Shown here piece after piece: positions 1,568 through 7,830 of a stretch of 64,000 nucleotides of DNA. Where the stretch lies: positions 124,001 through 188,000 of the forward strand of contig JAKVBG010000003.1 in NCBI GenBank assembly GCA_022447605.1, written 5' to 3'. The notes under the pieces were generated by a model that was not told where the DNA came from, ran no database searches, and saw only the letters and a program-made list of their open reading frames with translations. Every line of letters begins with the position of its first letter. Positions within the stretch are counted from its first letter, which is position 1. Position numbers and translations under genes: made by a program. This stretch comes from Mariniblastus sp. Its GTDB lineage: Bacteria > Planctomycetota > Planctomycetia > Pirellulales > Pirellulaceae.

Positions 1568-2566
1568 ATGACGCAGCCAACTCACAACCCCGCCGGCTCT
1601 CAACCGACTGCCGCGCCAGCCCGTACGGAGACATCGGAGTTGCCCCGTCGGACCGTGCCAGCCTGGCTGCTCTCCTTCCTGCTGCATACATTGATCCTGT
1701 TTTCCCTGTTGTTTCTGTTGAGCCGCTTCAGCGGCGGGGCCAGCGAAGTCGAAAACCGAGCCGGGGGAATCGTGCTGGTCAACGCGGTCGCTAAGACCAC
1801 TGAATATCTCGCTGAGGGGGACGTCACCGAACCGTCGCCAGCCGCCGCCCAGCAACAGAGCCCACCCCCGATGGCAACGGAAGAACGGCCGCCCGACCTG
1901 GCCGGCCTGGAATCGAACCCGTCCGAACTGACCGGGGTTGGTCAGGATTTTTCCGAAGCCCTGTCCGGGGCCGATTCACTGCTGGACGGGATGAACAGCC
2001 AACGCCCGATCGGTGGCCAGGTCACGACCGAGGTGTTTGGCGTCAAGGGAACCGGTTCCCAGTTCGTCTATGTCTTTGATCGGTCAGCCAGTATGGAAGG
2101 ATACGAGGGACGACCACTGCGAGCGGCCAAACAGGCCCTGATTGAAAGCCTGGAATCGCTGAAAGAGAATCACCAGTTCCAGATCATCTTCTACAACGAC
2201 CAGACCAAAATTTTTCGACCGGATGGCAGGGGCGACCGACTCGCCTTTGCAACCGATCTGATGAAGCAGAAGGGGGCTGGCTTTGTGCAGTCCATCCGCG
2301 GTGACCGGGGAACCAATCATATGCAGGCGATCAAGCAAGCGCTCGCCTTCGGCCCCGACGTGATTTTTCTGTTGACCGATGCCGAGGGCGGATTTAACCA
2401 GCAGGACCTGTCCCGTATCAGCCAGTGGAACCGGGCCGGTACCGTTATCAATGCCATTGAATTTGGAGTCGGTGGGAAACCGACACTGACCAACTCACTT
2501 AGAATTTTGTCCCGTGAAAACGGGGGACAGTATACGTACAAAAACGTTTTGTCATTCCGGGATTAA
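1568..2566 (+). CDS. TonB/TolA-topology transmembrane protein with C-terminal von Willebrand A domain
   Basis: 332 residues; ATG start preceded by a close AAGG. Residues 1-30 are polar and probably cytoplasmic. Residues 31-53 form one transmembrane helix (VPAWLLSFLLHTLILFSLLF...) containing Ser36-x3-His40, the same spacing as the functional Ser/His pair in the TonB and TolA membrane anchors. A Pro/Ala/Gln-rich linker follows (about 84-110). Residues 164-330 are a von Willebrand A domain: the MIDAS motif D171-x-S173-x-S175, a Thr at 249 and an Asp at 271 (LLTDAEGG) are all present, so metal binding is likely. It heads an operon with ExbB and two ExbD proteins. Known: VWA domains bind protein ligands through a metal ion, and ExbB/ExbD energise TonB-like partners. 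Inferred: this protein is the transducer of the ExbBD complex encoded next to it. The VWA assignment is firm; the TonB-like role is a hypothesis. Confidence 0.88.
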   Translation: MTQPTHNPAGSQPTAAPARTETSELPRRTVPAWLLSFLLHTLILFSLLFLLSRFSGGASEVENRAGGIVLVNAVAKTTEYLAEGDVTEPSPAAAQQQSPPPMATEERPPDLAGLESNPSELTGVGQDFSEALSGADSLLDGMNSQRPIGGQVTTEVFGVKGTGSQFVYVFDRSASMEGYEGRPLRAAKQALIESLESLKENHQFQIIFYNDQTKIFRPDGRGDRLAFATDLMKQKGAGFVQSIRGDRGTNHMQAIKQALAFGPDVIFLLTDAEGGFNQQDLSRISQWNRAGTVINAIEFGVGGKPTLTNSLRILSRENGGQYTYKNVLSFRD

Positions 2567-2620
2567 ACCACTCCGTCCCGGCAAGACAACCGGTGCCGTC
2601 AACCGTATAAGGATGTCACG

Positions 2621-3643
2621 TTGAACCTGATAAAAATTCTCCAATCCATCATCTTGTTCCCGGCCTTCATCGCTGTGGTTTGGACCAGTGCGGCCGGGGC
2701 CCAGGATGTGCTGGTGACAGGAGTTGCTGATTCGTCAGCCACCAGCAAGCGCAAAGGTCTCATCACCGAATGGCTGGGAAACGAGATCACACTGGAATCC
2801 TCCGGGCGCGCCAGGCAAGTCGATGCGGACAAGGTCATCGAGATCCAAACCACCTGGCCCGACACCTACCAAACGGCAATCGACCTGCTGCAACAGAAGC
2901 GTTTTGCCGATGCCATTGGACCACTGCAGTCGGCCATCAATGCCGAAACCCGACCTTGGGCCCAGCGGGCCATGGCCGGCAAGCTGATCGAATGTTACTT
3001 GGCAACCGGCAACGAGGGACTGGCGGTGGACGAATTTGTGGCCATCACCCGCGCCGATCCACAGACCCGTTTCTACAAGCTGGCTCCCCTGCCCTGGGTT
3101 AGCACCGTGGCCAACGGTGGCCCTGGTCAGAATGCCAGGGCCTGGATGGAATCGGCGGACCCGGTAGAGCGACTGATGGGCGCTGCCTGGGCGCTGTCCG
3201 GCCCGGAAAGGAGTTCGGCCATCACCGTCCTTAAGGACCTGGCCGGCGACTCCCACGCCTCGATTGCCGCACTGGCCAAATCGCAGTTATGGAGAACCGA
3301 AAGCGTCAGCGCCAAACCGGACACGGTCCGGCGCTGGCAAGCCGAACTGCAGGTGATGCCGCGTCCCGTTCGGGCCGGTGCCTACCTGATGCTGGCCGAT
3401 GCCCAGTCGCGAAACCAGATGCAGGAAGAAGCCGCCCTCAACCTGATGCGGATTGCCATCCTCCACCCGGAACAACACGGCTTGGCGGCGGCCGCCTTGT
3501 ATCGTTGTGCCAAGTTGAGGCAGAATGCGGGTCATCTCGACGAGAGCCGAACCTTGTGGACCGAGATCCAGCGAAACTACCGTGATACCTTGTGGGCCAA
3601 ACAGGCGTCGGCCCACCTGACCGAATCCAATTCCAATAATTGA
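2621..3643 (+). CDS. Exported TPR-like helical-repeat protein of the ExbBD/VWA operon
   Basis: 340 residues. The start is a TTG at 2621 with AAGGA eight bases upstream; the ATG inside that site runs into a stop after three codons, so TTG is preferred. Residues 1-27 form a signal peptide ending in SAAGA. After a short beta-type region (residues 30-85) the remainder is alpha-helical with repeated Ala/Leu-rich pairs such as AIDLLQQKRFADAIGPL and KLIECYLATGNEGLAVDEF, which fit tetratricopeptide-like repeats. It is probably periplasmic. It is followed by the ExbB gene, with ends that nearly touch, so it belongs to the same transcription unit. TPR proteins usually mediate assembly; I infer a scaffold or adaptor for the envelope complex. 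No enzymatic motif is visible. Confidence 0.75.
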   Translation: MNLIKILQSIILFPAFIAVVWTSAAGAQDVLVTGVADSSATSKRKGLITEWLGNEITLESSGRARQVDADKVIEIQTTWPDTYQTAIDLLQQKRFADAIGPLQSAINAETRPWAQRAMAGKLIECYLATGNEGLAVDEFVAITRADPQTRFYKLAPLPWVSTVANGGPGQNARAWMESADPVERLMGAAWALSGPERSSAITVLKDLAGDSHASIAALAKSQLWRTESVSAKPDTVRRWQAELQVMPRPVRAGAYLMLADAQSRNQMQEEAALNLMRIAILHPEQHGLAAAALYRCAKLRQNAGHLDESRTLWTEIQRNYRDTLWAKQASAHLTESNSNN

Positions 3644-3654
3644 ATGGTTGTTTG

Positions 3655-4446
3655 ATGATACATTTCAGGATGAAACCCTTCAGGATGAACCGGGCGAGCT
3701 GTCTGCGATACCCGTTCATGATTTCACTCTTTACGATCCTTGTCACGGACGCTTCCCGGCTGTGGGCACAGGAAGATATGGCCGCGGAATCCGAGGCACC
3801 CGCTGGCTTGATGGGCATCATCTTCTCGGGTGGCATTGTGGGCGCCATCATGATCTTCATCCTGCTGGCCCTGTCGATGACGGCTGCCTACCTGATCTTC
3901 GATCACTTGATGACCATTCGACAGAAAGACCTGATGCCCCCCGGACTGGCTGACCAGGTGCGAGACGCGCTGGTGGCTGGAGACGCCAACGCAGCCAGGC
4001 AGGCTTGCAACGCCCGGCCCAGTTTCCTCTCGTTTGTGCTGATGCACGGGATTGCCGAGCTGGAATTCGGCTGGAACGCAGTAGAAAAATCCCTGGAAGA
4101 CGCGCTGGCCGAGCAGTCGGCTCGGCTGTTCCGCAAAATTGAATACCTTTCGGTGATTGGCAATATCGCGCCGATGGTCGGCCTGTTGGGTACGGTGATC
4201 GGGATGATCATGGCCTTCCAGGAGGTTGCCTCAACCCAGGGCATGGCCAGCGCACCGCAACTGGCCCAGGGAATCTACCAGGCATTGATCACGACCGTAG
4301 GTGGATTGATCGTCGCCATCCCGGCCATTGGGGCATTTGCCATTTTCCGAAACCGGATCGACCAGTTCGTCGCCGAGGCCGCCTTCTCGGCACAGAACGT
4401 GTTTGCACCGCTGCGACGGAAAGCGAAACGAAAGGGAGCCGAATGA
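3655..4446 (+). CDS. exbB: MotA/TolQ/ExbB family proton channel subunit
   Basis: About 263 residues from the first ATG at 3655; a TTG at 3640 overlapping the previous stop, and ATGs at 3670 and 3685, are in-frame alternatives and none has a clear ribosome-binding site. An N-terminal hydrophobic segment ending near LWAQ may be a signal sequence, as is common in planctomycete ExbB proteins. Three further membrane segments follow; the last two carry the family signature (IGNIAPMVGLLGTVIGMI and ALITTVGGLIVAIPAI) with the conserved threonines lining the proton path. The protein forms the stator-type channel with ExbD in the inner membrane and couples proton flow to a periplasmic partner. Its stop overlaps the ExbD start by four bases (ATGA), so translation is probably coupled. 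No tonB gene is present; the first gene of the operon is the likely partner. Confidence 0.93.
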   Translation: MIHFRMKPFRMNRASCLRYPFMISLFTILVTDASRLWAQEDMAAESEAPAGLMGIIFSGGIVGAIMIFILLALSMTAAYLIFDHLMTIRQKDLMPPGLADQVRDALVAGDANAARQACNARPSFLSFVLMHGIAELEFGWNAVEKSLEDALAEQSARLFRKIEYLSVIGNIAPMVGLLGTVIGMIMAFQEVASTQGMASAPQLAQGIYQALITTVGGLIVAIPAIGAFAIFRNRIDQFVAEAAFSAQNVFAPLRRKAKRKGAE

Positions 4447-4868
4447 AGGCCCCACGTTACAAGCCGGCCAAAAAGTACGGGTTCAACATGACACCGATGA
4501 TCGATGTCGTGTTCCTGTTGATCATCTTTTTCCTGGTATCGAGCCACCTGGCCCGCCAGGAGAACCAGATCGAAATGGAGTTGCCCGTCGCCCAGTCAGC
4601 CGATGATGATGTGGAACAGGACACGCCCCGTGTCACGGTCAATGTCAAAGAGGATGGAACCATCTGGGTGGGGGGGCGACCGGTCTCCGCCGAGGCGCTC
4701 ATCCAGCGGTTAACCGCAGCGCGGCAACAGCAAGGGGATGACCTGGAAGTCCGAATCCGGGGAAGCCGAGTAGCGCCGTACGCGTTTTTTGAACCGATCA
4801 TGTTGGCCTGTACCGAGTCGGGGATCTGGAATGTGACGTTTGCCGTCTACCGGGAGGAAGTCCGGTGA
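4443..4868 (+). CDS. exbD: ExbD/TolR family biopolymer transport protein (first copy)
   Basis: 141 residues, ATG start overlapping the ExbB stop by four bases. A short basic cytoplasmic N-terminus (KAPRYKPAKKYGF) leads into MTPMIDVVFLLIIFFLVSS, the single transmembrane helix with the proton-carrying aspartate in the PMIDVVF motif. The remaining about 100 residues form the periplasmic ExbD/TolR domain. In the family ExbD forms a dimer inside an ExbB pentamer. It overlaps the second ExbD gene by four bases. Having two different ExbD genes in a row suggests a heterodimer rather than the usual homodimer; that is an inference. Confidence 0.93.
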   Translation: MKAPRYKPAKKYGFNMTPMIDVVFLLIIFFLVSSHLARQENQIEMELPVAQSADDDVEQDTPRVTVNVKEDGTIWVGGRPVSAEALIQRLTAARQQQGDDLEVRIRGSRVAPYAFFEPIMLACTESGIWNVTFAVYREEVR

Positions 4869-5326
4869 AACGACCGAGCCTGCATGTCAATCGGAGTGGT
4901 GACACCAGCATGGATGCGGCCATGACACCGATGATCGATGTCGTCTTCCTGTTGCTGGTCTTTTTTGTCTGGACAGCCAGCTTCCAGATCATCGAACAGA
5001 TCCTGCCCAGCCAGATGTCCGCCCAGATGGGAGCGGAACCGAGCGAGTTGGACGAACCGCCGCCGGAAGCCGATTTCGATAATGTCGTCATCCGTATCAG
5101 CTGGAACGAGGGACAGCCTGCCTGGCAACTCAACGATGTGCCGGTCGAATCGATCGATCAGCTAAACGCCCAGTTGGCAGCCATTTCAGCAGTCAAGATC
5201 GACGCACCCGTCATCCTGCACCCGGACCAGGTGGTCCCGCTGGGAAACGTAATTCAGGTTTACGATCTCTCCAAGCTGGCCGGTTTCCAGCAAATTTCAT
5301 TTGCCGTCACCCCGGAAAAACTGTGA
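4865..5326 (+). CDS. exbD: ExbD/TolR family biopolymer transport protein (second copy)
   Basis: 153 residues, GTG start overlapping the preceding stop by four bases. The transmembrane segment MTPMIDVVFLLLVFFVWTAS keeps the functional aspartate. The periplasmic part differs strongly from the first copy and begins with an acidic, Pro-rich stretch (SELDEPPPEADFD). Its stop codon overlaps the ATG of the next gene. The two copies share the membrane motif but little else, so they look like an old duplication with divergent periplasmic specificities rather than a recent one. Confidence 0.92.
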   Translation: MKRPSLHVNRSGDTSMDAAMTPMIDVVFLLLVFFVWTASFQIIEQILPSQMSAQMGAEPSELDEPPPEADFDNVVIRISWNEGQPAWQLNDVPVESIDQLNAQLAAISAVKIDAPVILHPDQVVPLGNVIQVYDLSKLAGFQQISFAVTPEKL

Positions 5327-7830
5327 TGCGCATCGTTCGAATCTTGCTGCTATGGGCGATCGTCTGTTCGCCGCTTGCCGGGCCACCGCCGGCTTGGGCC
5401 GAACAACAGGATGAGATCCAGGAAACGGTCCGGGTGGTCGAGGGCTTGCGACAACGCCGCATGTTCGAACTGGCCAAACAACTTGTCCAGACCGAGTTAT
5501 CGGACCCGGAAATCGACCCGACCCAACAGGTGCAGTTACAACTTGCGTTGATACGGACCTTGGTGGCCGAAGCGGTCGCCACGCCACTGGCCGAACGGCC
5601 CGTCCTCTGGCAACAGGTGACGCAAACGATCGATGACTTTCGCCTGGCCAACGGGGATCACCCTCGGCAGATCCTGATCGATGTTCAACAAGCCCTGGCC
5701 CATCAAACCCGGGGCAACCTGTTGGTCCAGGAGATCGCGGCGGAAATGGGGGGTGCAACCGAAAAGGATCAGGCCTTGGTGGAATTGCGAAATGCCAGCC
5801 GTGAAATCAAGCAGGTTCTCGCCAAAGTTGACCGTCTGATACCCGAGCAACGGGGCCGCCAGCTGAAAGACCACGAGCTGTCGGTCGACCAGCTGTTGAA
5901 CCTGCGGCGGAACATGCGGTTCCAGGAAGCCCGCACCAACCTGATTAAAGCCCAGTTGTACGAACCGGACGACCGGTTGAATCGCCTGGACACCTTGAAC
6001 CTCGTGAGCGACCGAATTGACGAAGTCCTCAACCAATCCAACCCGGATCAGCCGCTCTGGTGGCAGGCGCAAATCAACCAGGCCAAGTGTTACACCTTGT
6101 TGGGCAATAGCGCGGCGGCAGACTCCCTGTTGCGGGAATTGCCACTGAAACAGCTACCAGCCAGCCAAGCCTCGCAACTACTCGAACAGAAGATTGAAGT
6201 GGCCATCACCTCGGGCCAAACCGACCGCATGAGCCGATTGCTGGGTGAGATTCAGCAGGCCAATACGACCGATCCCAACCTGCAACTTTCCATCCTTCGC
6301 CTCTACATGCAGCTGGCCAAGACAGCTCAAGACGCACCAGCTCGTGGCAAGTGGCAACAGACGGCAGCCGGGCTGACACGGTCGATCGAAACAACCAACG
6401 GCCCATACTGGGGGCGAAGGGCCGAGTTGGTCCTGATCGGGCCGAGCGGCGTGGTCCCACCGAGCACGGGTAATGGCAGCCAACCCGGCATGAACACCGA
6501 CGCTTCCATCCTGATCCGCATGGGGGACCAGGCCGTCCGCAAGAACAATCTGCAGGATGCGGCCCGGGCTTACGCGAAAGCTGCCAGCGAAGCAGAGCAG
6601 AAAGGTGACGGGGAACAGTCCCTGCTGGCCAGCGTTCGGCTCTCCCAGGTTCATGAAAAAACGGGGGATCATGAAGCGGCTCACGATGTCCTGATCACGT
6701 CGTCCCTGAAACATGCCGGACTGCCGATCGCCTCGGCTGCCCACCTGCGAGGCTGCTGGAACTGGGCGCAGTTCGCCAAACAGGACCCCTCTCGCAGCGC
6801 CCAGTTCATTTCCCTGTTGCAGCAGAACCTGACAACTTGGCCGGACGCGGTAACGGCCGACCAGGCGCGGCTCTGGATCGCCGGCTACTTCCAGGCGGAA
6901 TCGGATTGGCCTAAGGCGATCACCGCCTACCTGGCCATCCAGCCACAAAGCGTCAAGGCAGTTGAGGCGTGCCGCCAGTTGGCGTACTGTTACTCACGGT
7001 TTCGTGATACACACAAAGGGAAGGATCCGGAAACAGGGTCATTGGCCCGGCAGGTGATCGACCATTTCACGACCAACGGCGAGCCCCCACGGATCGCCAT
7101 CCTGCTGTTGGCCGAGGTCGGACTGACCTCTGGCCAACTGACTTCGGAACAGGTCACTGCCCTGCTCACCCCGTTCATCGAGCAATCCGGTGACAAGCAA
7201 TTGGCAGCCAAGCAGCAGGCCCAAGCCTGGCGCGTGGCCGCCCTGGCGCTGCAGGGGAAAACTTCAGACCTGGCCCGCAGTGCATTGGCCGACCTTCCCA
7301 ACCAGCCAGCGCTGTTGCAACTCTGTGGTACTGCGCTACAAAGATCGGAGGCGTTCGCGGCCCCGGGGCAACAGACGAACCTGGCCGAACTGAAGCGGAT
7401 CCTGGCCGATAAGGGATTGTCGGCCGTCAACGAACCGGCCGCGCGGACCTATTGGCAACTGGAACAGGCGCGCGCCTTGCAACAACTCGGACAGGAAGAC
7501 GAGGCGATCAAACTGCTGGAACAGTTGGCCCGTGAAAAACCCAAGTCGCAGGAAATTCAATTGCGACTGGGAAGATCCCTGGCCCAAACGGCCCCCGGAT
7601 CGGAAGCCACATTACGACAGTGGCGCCGCATTGCGGCCCAGGTCAAACCCCGCTCGGATGCCTGGTTTGAAGCAAAACTACAGGTCGCCACAGCCCTGTC
7701 GGCTGCGGGAGAAAACGGGAAAGCACTTGATATGCTTAACTACATGAAAGCGATTCCACCCGGCTGGCAACCGTCCAGGTGGAAGGCTGAATTTGACCAG
7801 CTCTTGCGGCAATTGAAAGAACAGGGCTAA
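5326..7830 (+). CDS. Large exported TPR-like protein ending the ExbBD/VWA operon
   Basis: 834 residues from the ATG at 5326, which overlaps the ExbD stop; a GTG at 5323 directly before it is also possible. A signal peptide (MRIVRILLLWAIVCSPLAG...AWA) is present. The rest is almost entirely alpha-helical with many TPR-like pairs, for example AADSLLRELPLKQLPASQAS, NNLQDAARAYAKAASEAEQ and AIKLLEQLAREKPKSQEIQL, and a low-complexity Gly/Asn/Pro spacer near residue 385. No catalytic motif is visible. It is likely a periplasmic scaffold of the same complex. Its TAA stop at 7828-7830 overlaps the stop of the convergent zinc-ribbon gene. Family membership beyond helical repeats cannot be given. Confidence 0.8.
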   Translation: MRIVRILLLWAIVCSPLAGPPPAWAEQQDEIQETVRVVEGLRQRRMFELAKQLVQTELSDPEIDPTQQVQLQLALIRTLVAEAVATPLAERPVLWQQVTQTIDDFRLANGDHPRQILIDVQQALAHQTRGNLLVQEIAAEMGGATEKDQALVELRNASREIKQVLAKVDRLIPEQRGRQLKDHELSVDQLLNLRRNMRFQEARTNLIKAQLYEPDDRLNRLDTLNLVSDRIDEVLNQSNPDQPLWWQAQINQAKCYTLLGNSAAADSLLRELPLKQLPASQASQLLEQKIEVAITSGQTDRMSRLLGEIQQANTTDPNLQLSILRLYMQLAKTAQDAPARGKWQQTAAGLTRSIETTNGPYWGRRAELVLIGPSGVVPPSTGNGSQPGMNTDASILIRMGDQAVRKNNLQDAARAYAKAASEAEQKGDGEQSLLASVRLSQVHEKTGDHEAAHDVLITSSLKHAGLPIASAAHLRGCWNWAQFAKQDPSRSAQFISLLQQNLTTWPDAVTADQARLWIAGYFQAESDWPKAITAYLAIQPQSVKAVEACRQLAYCYSRFRDTHKGKDPETGSLARQVIDHFTTNGEPPRIAILLLAEVGLTSGQLTSEQVTALLTPFIEQSGDKQLAAKQQAQAWRVAALALQGKTSDLARSALADLPNQPALLQLCGTALQRSEAFAAPGQQTNLAELKRILADKGLSAVNEPAARTYWQLEQARALQQLGQEDEAIKLLEQLAREKPKSQEIQLRLGRSLAQTAPGSEATLRQWRRIAAQVKPRSDAWFEAKLQVATALSAAGENGKALDMLNYMKAIPPGWQPSRWKAEFDQLLRQLKEQG

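Follow-up and report, generated by a model that had tools for sequence, protein, structure and literature searches.

Introduction

A family of force transducers carrying von Willebrand factor type A (VWA) domains was predicted by Williams-Jones et al. in 2025, who found it by searching near motor genes and who include Planctomycetes among its hosts (PMC12204202). In the sections of that paper drawn on here, the proteins are encoded in synteny with a TPR gene, tolQ and two unlike tolR genes, AlphaFold 3 models of the complex show the transmembrane helix in contact with the motor through a His residue, and force transduction is proposed; the authors state that a deletion phenotype has yet to be reported, and the Myxococcus VWA protein is called AglZ, yet the CglB paper is cited for it. 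Here, a stretch of 64,000 nucleotides from a draft genome of Mariniblastus sp. (Planctomycetota; contig JAKVBG010000003.1, positions 124,001 to 188,000), hereafter the window, was analysed, in which a VWA gene heads an operon together with genes for ExbB, two ExbDs (ExbD1 and ExbD2) and two TPR-like proteins (TPRa and TPRb). This operon is a real and well-conserved member of the recently predicted family. An earlier sequence-only reading of the same DNA had arrived at a proton-driven VWA transducer and, since the family had already been predicted in PMC12204202 as far as the cited sections go, that idea is an independent rediscovery and not a new one. New in the present analysis are counts of how well the key residues are conserved, the part of the docking site contributed by ExbB, VWA genes at loci where no motor genes were found, motor operons without a VWA gene and the TPRa-TPRb fusions.

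The window operon shares with the VWA transducers of Williams-Jones et al., as the cited sections describe them, the Ser/His transmembrane helix, the Pro-rich disordered linker and the VWA head, as well as synteny with tolQ, a pair of tolR genes and TPR genes, which was seen in the window and in its relatives. It differs in having the VWA gene first and two TPR genes, whereas the VWA gene of the PVC (Planctomycetes-Verrucomicrobia-Chlamydiae) members in those sections often lies downstream of the motor. With TonB-ExbB-ExbD it has in common the motor Thr and Asp residues of ExbB and ExbD, a disordered linker, a C-terminal domain and S-x3-H-x6-L in the anchor helix; of the full S-x3-H-x6-L-x3-S (SHLS) anchor of TonB, however, the last S is absent, the C-terminal domain is a VWA head and not TonB_C, and the two ExbDs are different. 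The motor, the anchor and the TPR genes beside the motor are also found in TolA-TolQ-TolR, that is, Tol-Pal with CpoB, but the window operon has a VWA head, and neither TolB nor Pal was found among its six genes by Pfam and family searches. Finally, the TPH-vWA proteins that accompany TolQ only are, in the sections cited from PMC12204202, likewise membrane-anchored VWA proteins beside a TolQ-like gene; these have no Ser/His, their own helix supplies the proton-binding Asp, and they occur with no ExbD, in contrast to the window operon, in which ExbDs and a Ser/His helix are present.

Conservation of the anchor and linkage to ExbB

The operon probably encodes a Ton/Tol-type trans-envelope force transducer with a VWA head, an interpretation that agrees with the sequence-only reading and that is supported by the conservation of the Ser/His pair and by the linkage of VWA genes to ExbB. 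Conservation was assessed in 128 distinct VWA open reading frames (ORFs) at loci chosen by us and not at random (loci, genomes and contigs are designated by L, G and C numbers, respectively), 77 of which, from 75 loci including the window, had ExbB downstream. The helices were aligned on an anchor of Ser or Ala followed by x3-His, which none of the 77 ExbB-linked ORFs lacked. Ser was kept in 75 and His in all 77, so the survey of Ser36 and His40, set beforehand as a refuting test of the proposed transducer, left the proposal standing. The next most conserved positions were Trp at −3 (54/77) and Leu at +11 (51/77), the latter corresponding to the Leu of SHLS, with which Leu47 of the window protein fits. 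As a control, other ORFs of 250 aa or more were examined, taken from stop to stop and some of them surely not genes, and 3 of their 513 N-terminal hydrophobic segments showed S-x3-H. As judged from these sequence counts, Ser36-x3-His40 exceeds chance.

Both Ser exceptions come from the tandem VWA pair of one locus (L240:6954-8003 and L240:8036-9115), which stands beside ExbB-ExbD-ExbD and in which Ser is replaced by Ala while His is kept. The VWA proteins of L069 and L239 have S-x3-H.

Linkage was surveyed in 392 genomes sampled evenly from the phylum, using a single VWA sequence as the query (E ≤ 1e−10). A total of 60 genomes matched, the window's own included, and in 43 of them ExbB followed the best match on the same strand at a distance of up to 3.5 kb, while ExbB-ExbD-ExbD lay immediately upstream of the VWA gene in another (G377). 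Linkage of the two genes is thus common, and the gene-order survey did not refute the proposed operon. With a 34-row profile, 277 of the 392 genomes matched at E ≤ 1e−20, many of the matches listed covering no more than the VWA domain, and 147 of the 198 genomes of the class matched at E ≤ 1e−45. Moreover, an extra set of 16 genomes was chosen by us from four families of the class and judged by coordinates alone. In nine of these, ExbB lay on the strand of the best VWA match and no more than 2.4 kb from it, and in seven it was not near. Within this set, ExbB was upstream in six of the ten genomes of family f5, by coordinates the motor-then-VWA order of the cited sections of PMC12204202, and downstream in G431, G432 and G435.

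Two variants of the gene order were also seen. A second complete copy of VWA-TPR-ExbB-ExbD-ExbD-TPR, with TPR proteins that match those of the window weakly, was found in members of two further genera of the family (L223, L224, L225 and L231). A signal peptidase II gene (Pfam Peptidase_A8; L099:9072-9653) lies between VWA and TPRa in a genome of family f4, and several related loci have a gap of similar size.

The motor and the VWA protein

ExbB of the window matched MotA_ExbB in Pfam (1.9e−27) and TolQ/ExbB structures in the PDB; this domain and both ExbD domains scored well above the curated cut-offs. T185 and T219, kept in 75 of 75 ExbBs, align with the pore threonines of PDB ExbB, which are identified for E. 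coli ExbB in the cited section of PMC12905483. The membrane Asp column of the ExbDs (Table 1) held Asp in 70 of 70 first and 70 of 70 second copies, so neither resembles a dead copy. Two ExbDs followed 70 of the 77 ExbB-linked VWA ORFs, three followed two of them, one followed another two, and none was found for three. On the ExbB side of the putative docking site, Ser79 of the first transmembrane helix (TM1) and Pro228 of the third (TM3) were both kept in 75/75. These two positions match the Ser and the Pro found in the docking network of TonB and TolA on the motor, which, in the section of PMC12905483 used here, includes Ser, Pro and Trp. Two loci, L080 (after 10829) and L137 (after 10379), had VWA-TPRa-ExbB with no ExbD found over several downstream kb.

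The Pfam match of the VWA protein to VWA_2 (1.3e−5, 26.2 bits) was slightly below the curated cut-off of 27, yet the assignment is settled, because a profile of 34 VWA sequences matched inter-alpha-trypsin inhibitor H4 (ITIH4) in the PDB with an E-value of 1.7e−19 and the AlphaFold 2 (AF2) model had a predicted local distance difference test score (pLDDT) above 90 across most of residues 151-326. The closest solved structures to the head were the VWA domains of ITIH, CLCA1 and alpha-2/delta, and TonB_C (PF03544) did not appear among the Pfam matches of the protein at E-values up to 0.1. The single N-terminal transmembrane helix with its Ser/His pair and the linker, both read earlier from the letters, were confirmed by sequence and AF2. 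The intact metal ion-dependent adhesion site (MIDAS) was likewise borne out, its five residues being invariant in an alignment of 34 relatives (A1). Ser36 and His40 do not vary in A1 either, although its rows were admitted only with Ser at position 36.

The six genes lie on one strand in the order VWA, TPRa, ExbB, ExbD1, ExbD2 and TPRb, and the span 1568-7830 given for them before, as overlapping or nearly touching genes, proved exact on an ORF check: 54 nt separate VWA from TPRa, and the other four junctions are 4-nt overlaps. The source genome is a 4.99-Mb draft, 94% complete and in 203 contigs, whose nearest named relatives are Mariniblastus metagenome-assembled genomes, with identities of 85% and 77% over the full-length VWA protein.

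Table 1. Genes of the VWA operon and parts of its VWA protein, in window coordinates.
Feature	Coordinates	Strand	Evidence
VWA transducer gene (probable), 332 aa (transmembrane anchor, disordered linker, VWA head)	1568..2566	+	ORF, Pfam, AF2, PDB relatives
Membrane anchor helix, residues 32-53	1661..1726	+	AF2 secondary structure
Ser36-x3-His40 (SH of SHLS)	1673..1687	+	Alignment; motif definition as in the cited section of PMC12905483
Disordered linker, residues 54-150	1727..2017	+	pLDDT 44-64 per 10-residue block; composition
VWA domain, residues 151-326, MIDAS D171/S173/S175, T249, D271	2018..2545	+	Alignment, AF2, PDB matches
TPRa	2621..3643	+	ORF, AF2, generic TPR matches in PDB
ExbB/TolQ-family proton-channel protein, N-terminal hydrophobic extension	3640..4446	+	Pfam, PDB, conserved residues
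ExbD1	4443..4868	+	Pfam ExbD 3.7e−26; membrane Asp21
ExbD2	4865..5326	+	Pfam ExbD 4.1e−22; membrane Asp25
TPRb, 835-aa putative periplasmic TPR protein	5323..7830	+	ORF; weak TPR and tol_pal_ybgF matches

The TPR proteins

The AF2 model of TPRa (pLDDT 93.2) comprises an N-terminal helix, a small five-strand domain (29-76) and an alpha solenoid (81-339). The Pfam matches of TPRa and TPRb to TPR families were weak and below the cut-offs, as were those to tol_pal_ybgF, and both proteins have putative signal peptides, judged by eye. In three loci, TPRa and TPRb form a single ORF beside VWA (L136:8792-12688, L138:8752-12576 and L139:8531-12022), a natural fusion which suggests that the two act as one unit with VWA. 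The fold of TPRa was set aside as a functional clue, because the PDB gave generic TPR matches only. A divergence of TPRa and TPRb in operons without VWA was also considered as a sign of lost constraint and rejected, since their pairwise identities to the window were slightly lower and those of ExbB likewise; the lower scores of the TPRa and TPRb hidden Markov models in those operons are due to their absence from the models.

Proposed mechanism and weight of the evidence

In the proposed mechanism, five ExbB subunits and two unlike ExbDs would form a proton motor in the inner membrane, by the stoichiometry of TolQR and ExbBD, with ExbD1 presumably pairing with ExbD2. The single helix of the VWA protein, N-in by analogy with TonB and TolA, would use Ser36 and His40 to dock against the outer face of ExbB, a likely contact given that conservation was seen on both sides. 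The linker of about 97 residues could span the periplasm if extended and would thus cross it, placing the VWA domain, presumably periplasmic, where it might grip an outer-membrane or cell-wall partner via the MIDAS metal, and proton flow would pull on this grip. TPRa and TPRb would be periplasmic partners forming one unit with VWA, as CpoB with TolA.

The loci that bear the fused TPR gene belong to three Pirellulales genomes, and no ExbB-ExbD-ExbD was found beside VWA in the locus fetched from each. In a fourth locus (L141), TPRa and TPRb are two adjacent ORFs after VWA, and the opposite strand carries, at a distance of about 2.5 kb, an ExbB-ExbD-ExbD set that belongs to a different ExbB clade. 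S-x3-H is kept in all four, and a VWA protein with no ExbBD in its locus would, we infer, have to rely on ExbBD encoded elsewhere in that cell's genome.

Several observations weigh against this mechanism. The final Ser of SHLS is not kept among the ExbB-linked VWA ORFs, and the Trp of the docking network is not conserved, with a maximum of 6/75 Trp in any TM1 column of ExbB. Ser79 was also kept in 26 of 27 ExbBs without VWA, so it is not VWA-specific and would speak for docking in general at most. Moreover, 17 of the 60 best VWA matches had no downstream ExbB, S-x3-H being present in 13 of these (G377 included) and not in four; three of the 17 (L115, L180 and L183) lie within 2.7 kb of a contig end, where a downstream ExbB could be missed. 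Among all 51 VWA ORFs without ExbB downstream, S-x3-H was found in 43 and was missing in eight. As the motif is kept in those 43, and as every genome searched had at least two MotA_ExbB matches (MotA counted), S-x3-H was rejected as proof of pairing with the ExbB of the same operon. Such pairing is not obligatory.

The same holds from the side of the motor, as 12 of the 24 ExbB loci fetched from the window's genus had no VWA gene upstream in the stretch fetched, and the motor can therefore be kept without VWA in cis. These 12 loci all come from the 13 (of 24) same-genus genomes without an operon-type VWA, in which the best E-value was no better than about 1e−31, as against 1e−80 or better in the other 11. 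TPRa and ExbB are present in each of the 12, most of which continue with ExbD-ExbD-TPRb; in L153, however, TPRa is preceded by 234 bases of contig, and absence of VWA cannot be judged there. In the ExbB tree (FastTree only), the base of the genus holds 11 of the loci without VWA in unresolved order, and L157 falls inside the VWA-bearing set, which implies at least two losses of VWA if the ancestor had it. Furthermore, all 13 genomes without the operon-type VWA have another, weaker VWA match, and the eight loci fetched for this second type, four of them from the 13, had S-x3-H and no ExbB nearby. A VWA protein with S-x3-H was seen in five of the 13 (G395, G400, G402, G404 and G411).

The genome of the window itself encodes two more VWA proteins that are anchored in the membrane, carry S-x3-H and lie away from any ExbB, L073:7917-8969 (C151) and L074:8125-9345 (C171), and relatives of the former turned up in seven further genomes of the genus. 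It also has two further sets of ExbB-ExbD-ExbD with TPR genes, L156 (C112) and L165 (C68, starting at the contig end), alongside which no VWA or S-x3-H protein was detected.

The motor loci without VWA, the losses implied if the ancestor had it and the weaker VWA matches of the 13 genomes would fit a motor that acts mainly through the TPR proteins or through an unlinked transducer, with VWA as a replaceable accessory. We regard this as an unlikely explanation, though the least unlikely of the alternatives, since the VWA-ExbB linkage is phylum-wide and since, at the three loci in which no motor genes were found (L136, L138 and L139), the TPR genes are still beside VWA. The VWA protein could also be a membrane-anchored assembly or sensing factor of the BatA/BatB type that is not proton-driven, its Ser and His only holding it near ExbB. 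Assembly and binding are common roles of VWA domains, and BatB of Bacteroides is among the structural matches of the head, at rank 23; on the other hand, His is never replaced in the ExbB-linked ORFs, Ser is replaced in two, and anchor and head are joined by a long disordered linker, which suits a reaching part, so this explanation is rather improbable. The Agl/Glt/CglB machinery of Myxococcus also combines one TolQ-like and two TolR-like proteins with TPR proteins and a VWA adhesin, which would favour a surface-motility or adhesion engine with VWA as its adhesive part. CglB, however, is an outer-membrane lipoprotein, whereas the window VWA has an S-x3-H membrane helix, and a motility engine is considered very improbable, although a gliding role is suggested in the cited sections of PMC12204202. 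The force transducer with a VWA head is the reading that we retain.

Ton components elsewhere in the genome and possible roles

The sequence-only reading had noted no tonB nearby, and this extends to the whole genome: no TonB_C match at E ≤ 0.001 and no plug domain of TonB-dependent transporters were found in the 94%-complete draft, by searches that recover E. coli, Caulobacter and Bacteroides among 14 controls; the C-terminal family of TolA was not searched. Ten ExbD matches, spread over six contigs, were found in the genome, together with eight MotA_ExbB matches and one OmpA-family match, the last on another contig than the operon.

Energy-dependent envelope work has been described in this phylum. 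Gemmata obscuriglobus takes up green fluorescent protein as well as labelled dextran (30-40 kDa), an uptake that is stopped by the uncoupler carbonyl cyanide m-chlorophenylhydrazone (CCCP), with dextran entering 0 of 816 treated cells vs. 23% of 1,065 untreated cells; in the sections cited of that 2017 paper, dextran is located in the periplasm and the uptake system is still to be characterised (PMC5394234). The VWA transducer, being widespread, probably driven by protons and fitted with another head, is a concrete candidate for such work that can be deleted, and it is our guess that a VWA operon powers the CCCP-sensitive uptake of the Gemmata type. Such a transducer would also make the Ton/Tol motor a general engine with exchangeable heads. 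A broader and rather improbable idea is that VWA-ExbB-ExbD1-ExbD2-TPR replaces Ton in planctomycetes, powering the uncoupler-sensitive passage of entire macromolecules across the outer membrane and/or press-stud links between the membranes at crateriform structures, with the VWA-MIDAS grip taking the place of the beta-strand of TonB, as one of a wider set with swapped heads (VWA, alpha/alpha toroid). As the concept of the VWA transducer is already in print, the interest lies in the missing Ton system, the natural variants and the function. The main texts of the essential-gene papers on Planctopirus and Verrucomicrobium (PMC10632474 and PMC12283558) mention none of ExbB, ExbD, TolQ, von Willebrand, biopolymer or Tol-Pal.

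A separate group of proteins, resembling squalene-hopene cyclase, was found near ExbB and a single ExbD in the window's own genome (L166:6857-8848, C79) and at three other loci (L168:7353-9260, L169:3365-5488 and L188:9191-11317), the distance being about 2.2 kb in L188. A search of the open-access literature, preprints excluded, gave nothing combining ExbD, squalene and planctomycet, and squalene-hopene cyclase was absent among the matches listed. The four proteins have an N-terminal hydrophobic segment, an S-x3-H helix (S59 and H63 in 4/4) and a low-complexity linker, and the C-terminal part of L166 matches PF13243 in Pfam (4.4e−7). We take this C-terminal part to have the alpha/alpha toroid fold, and the protein is possibly another transducer of TonB topology with a different head.

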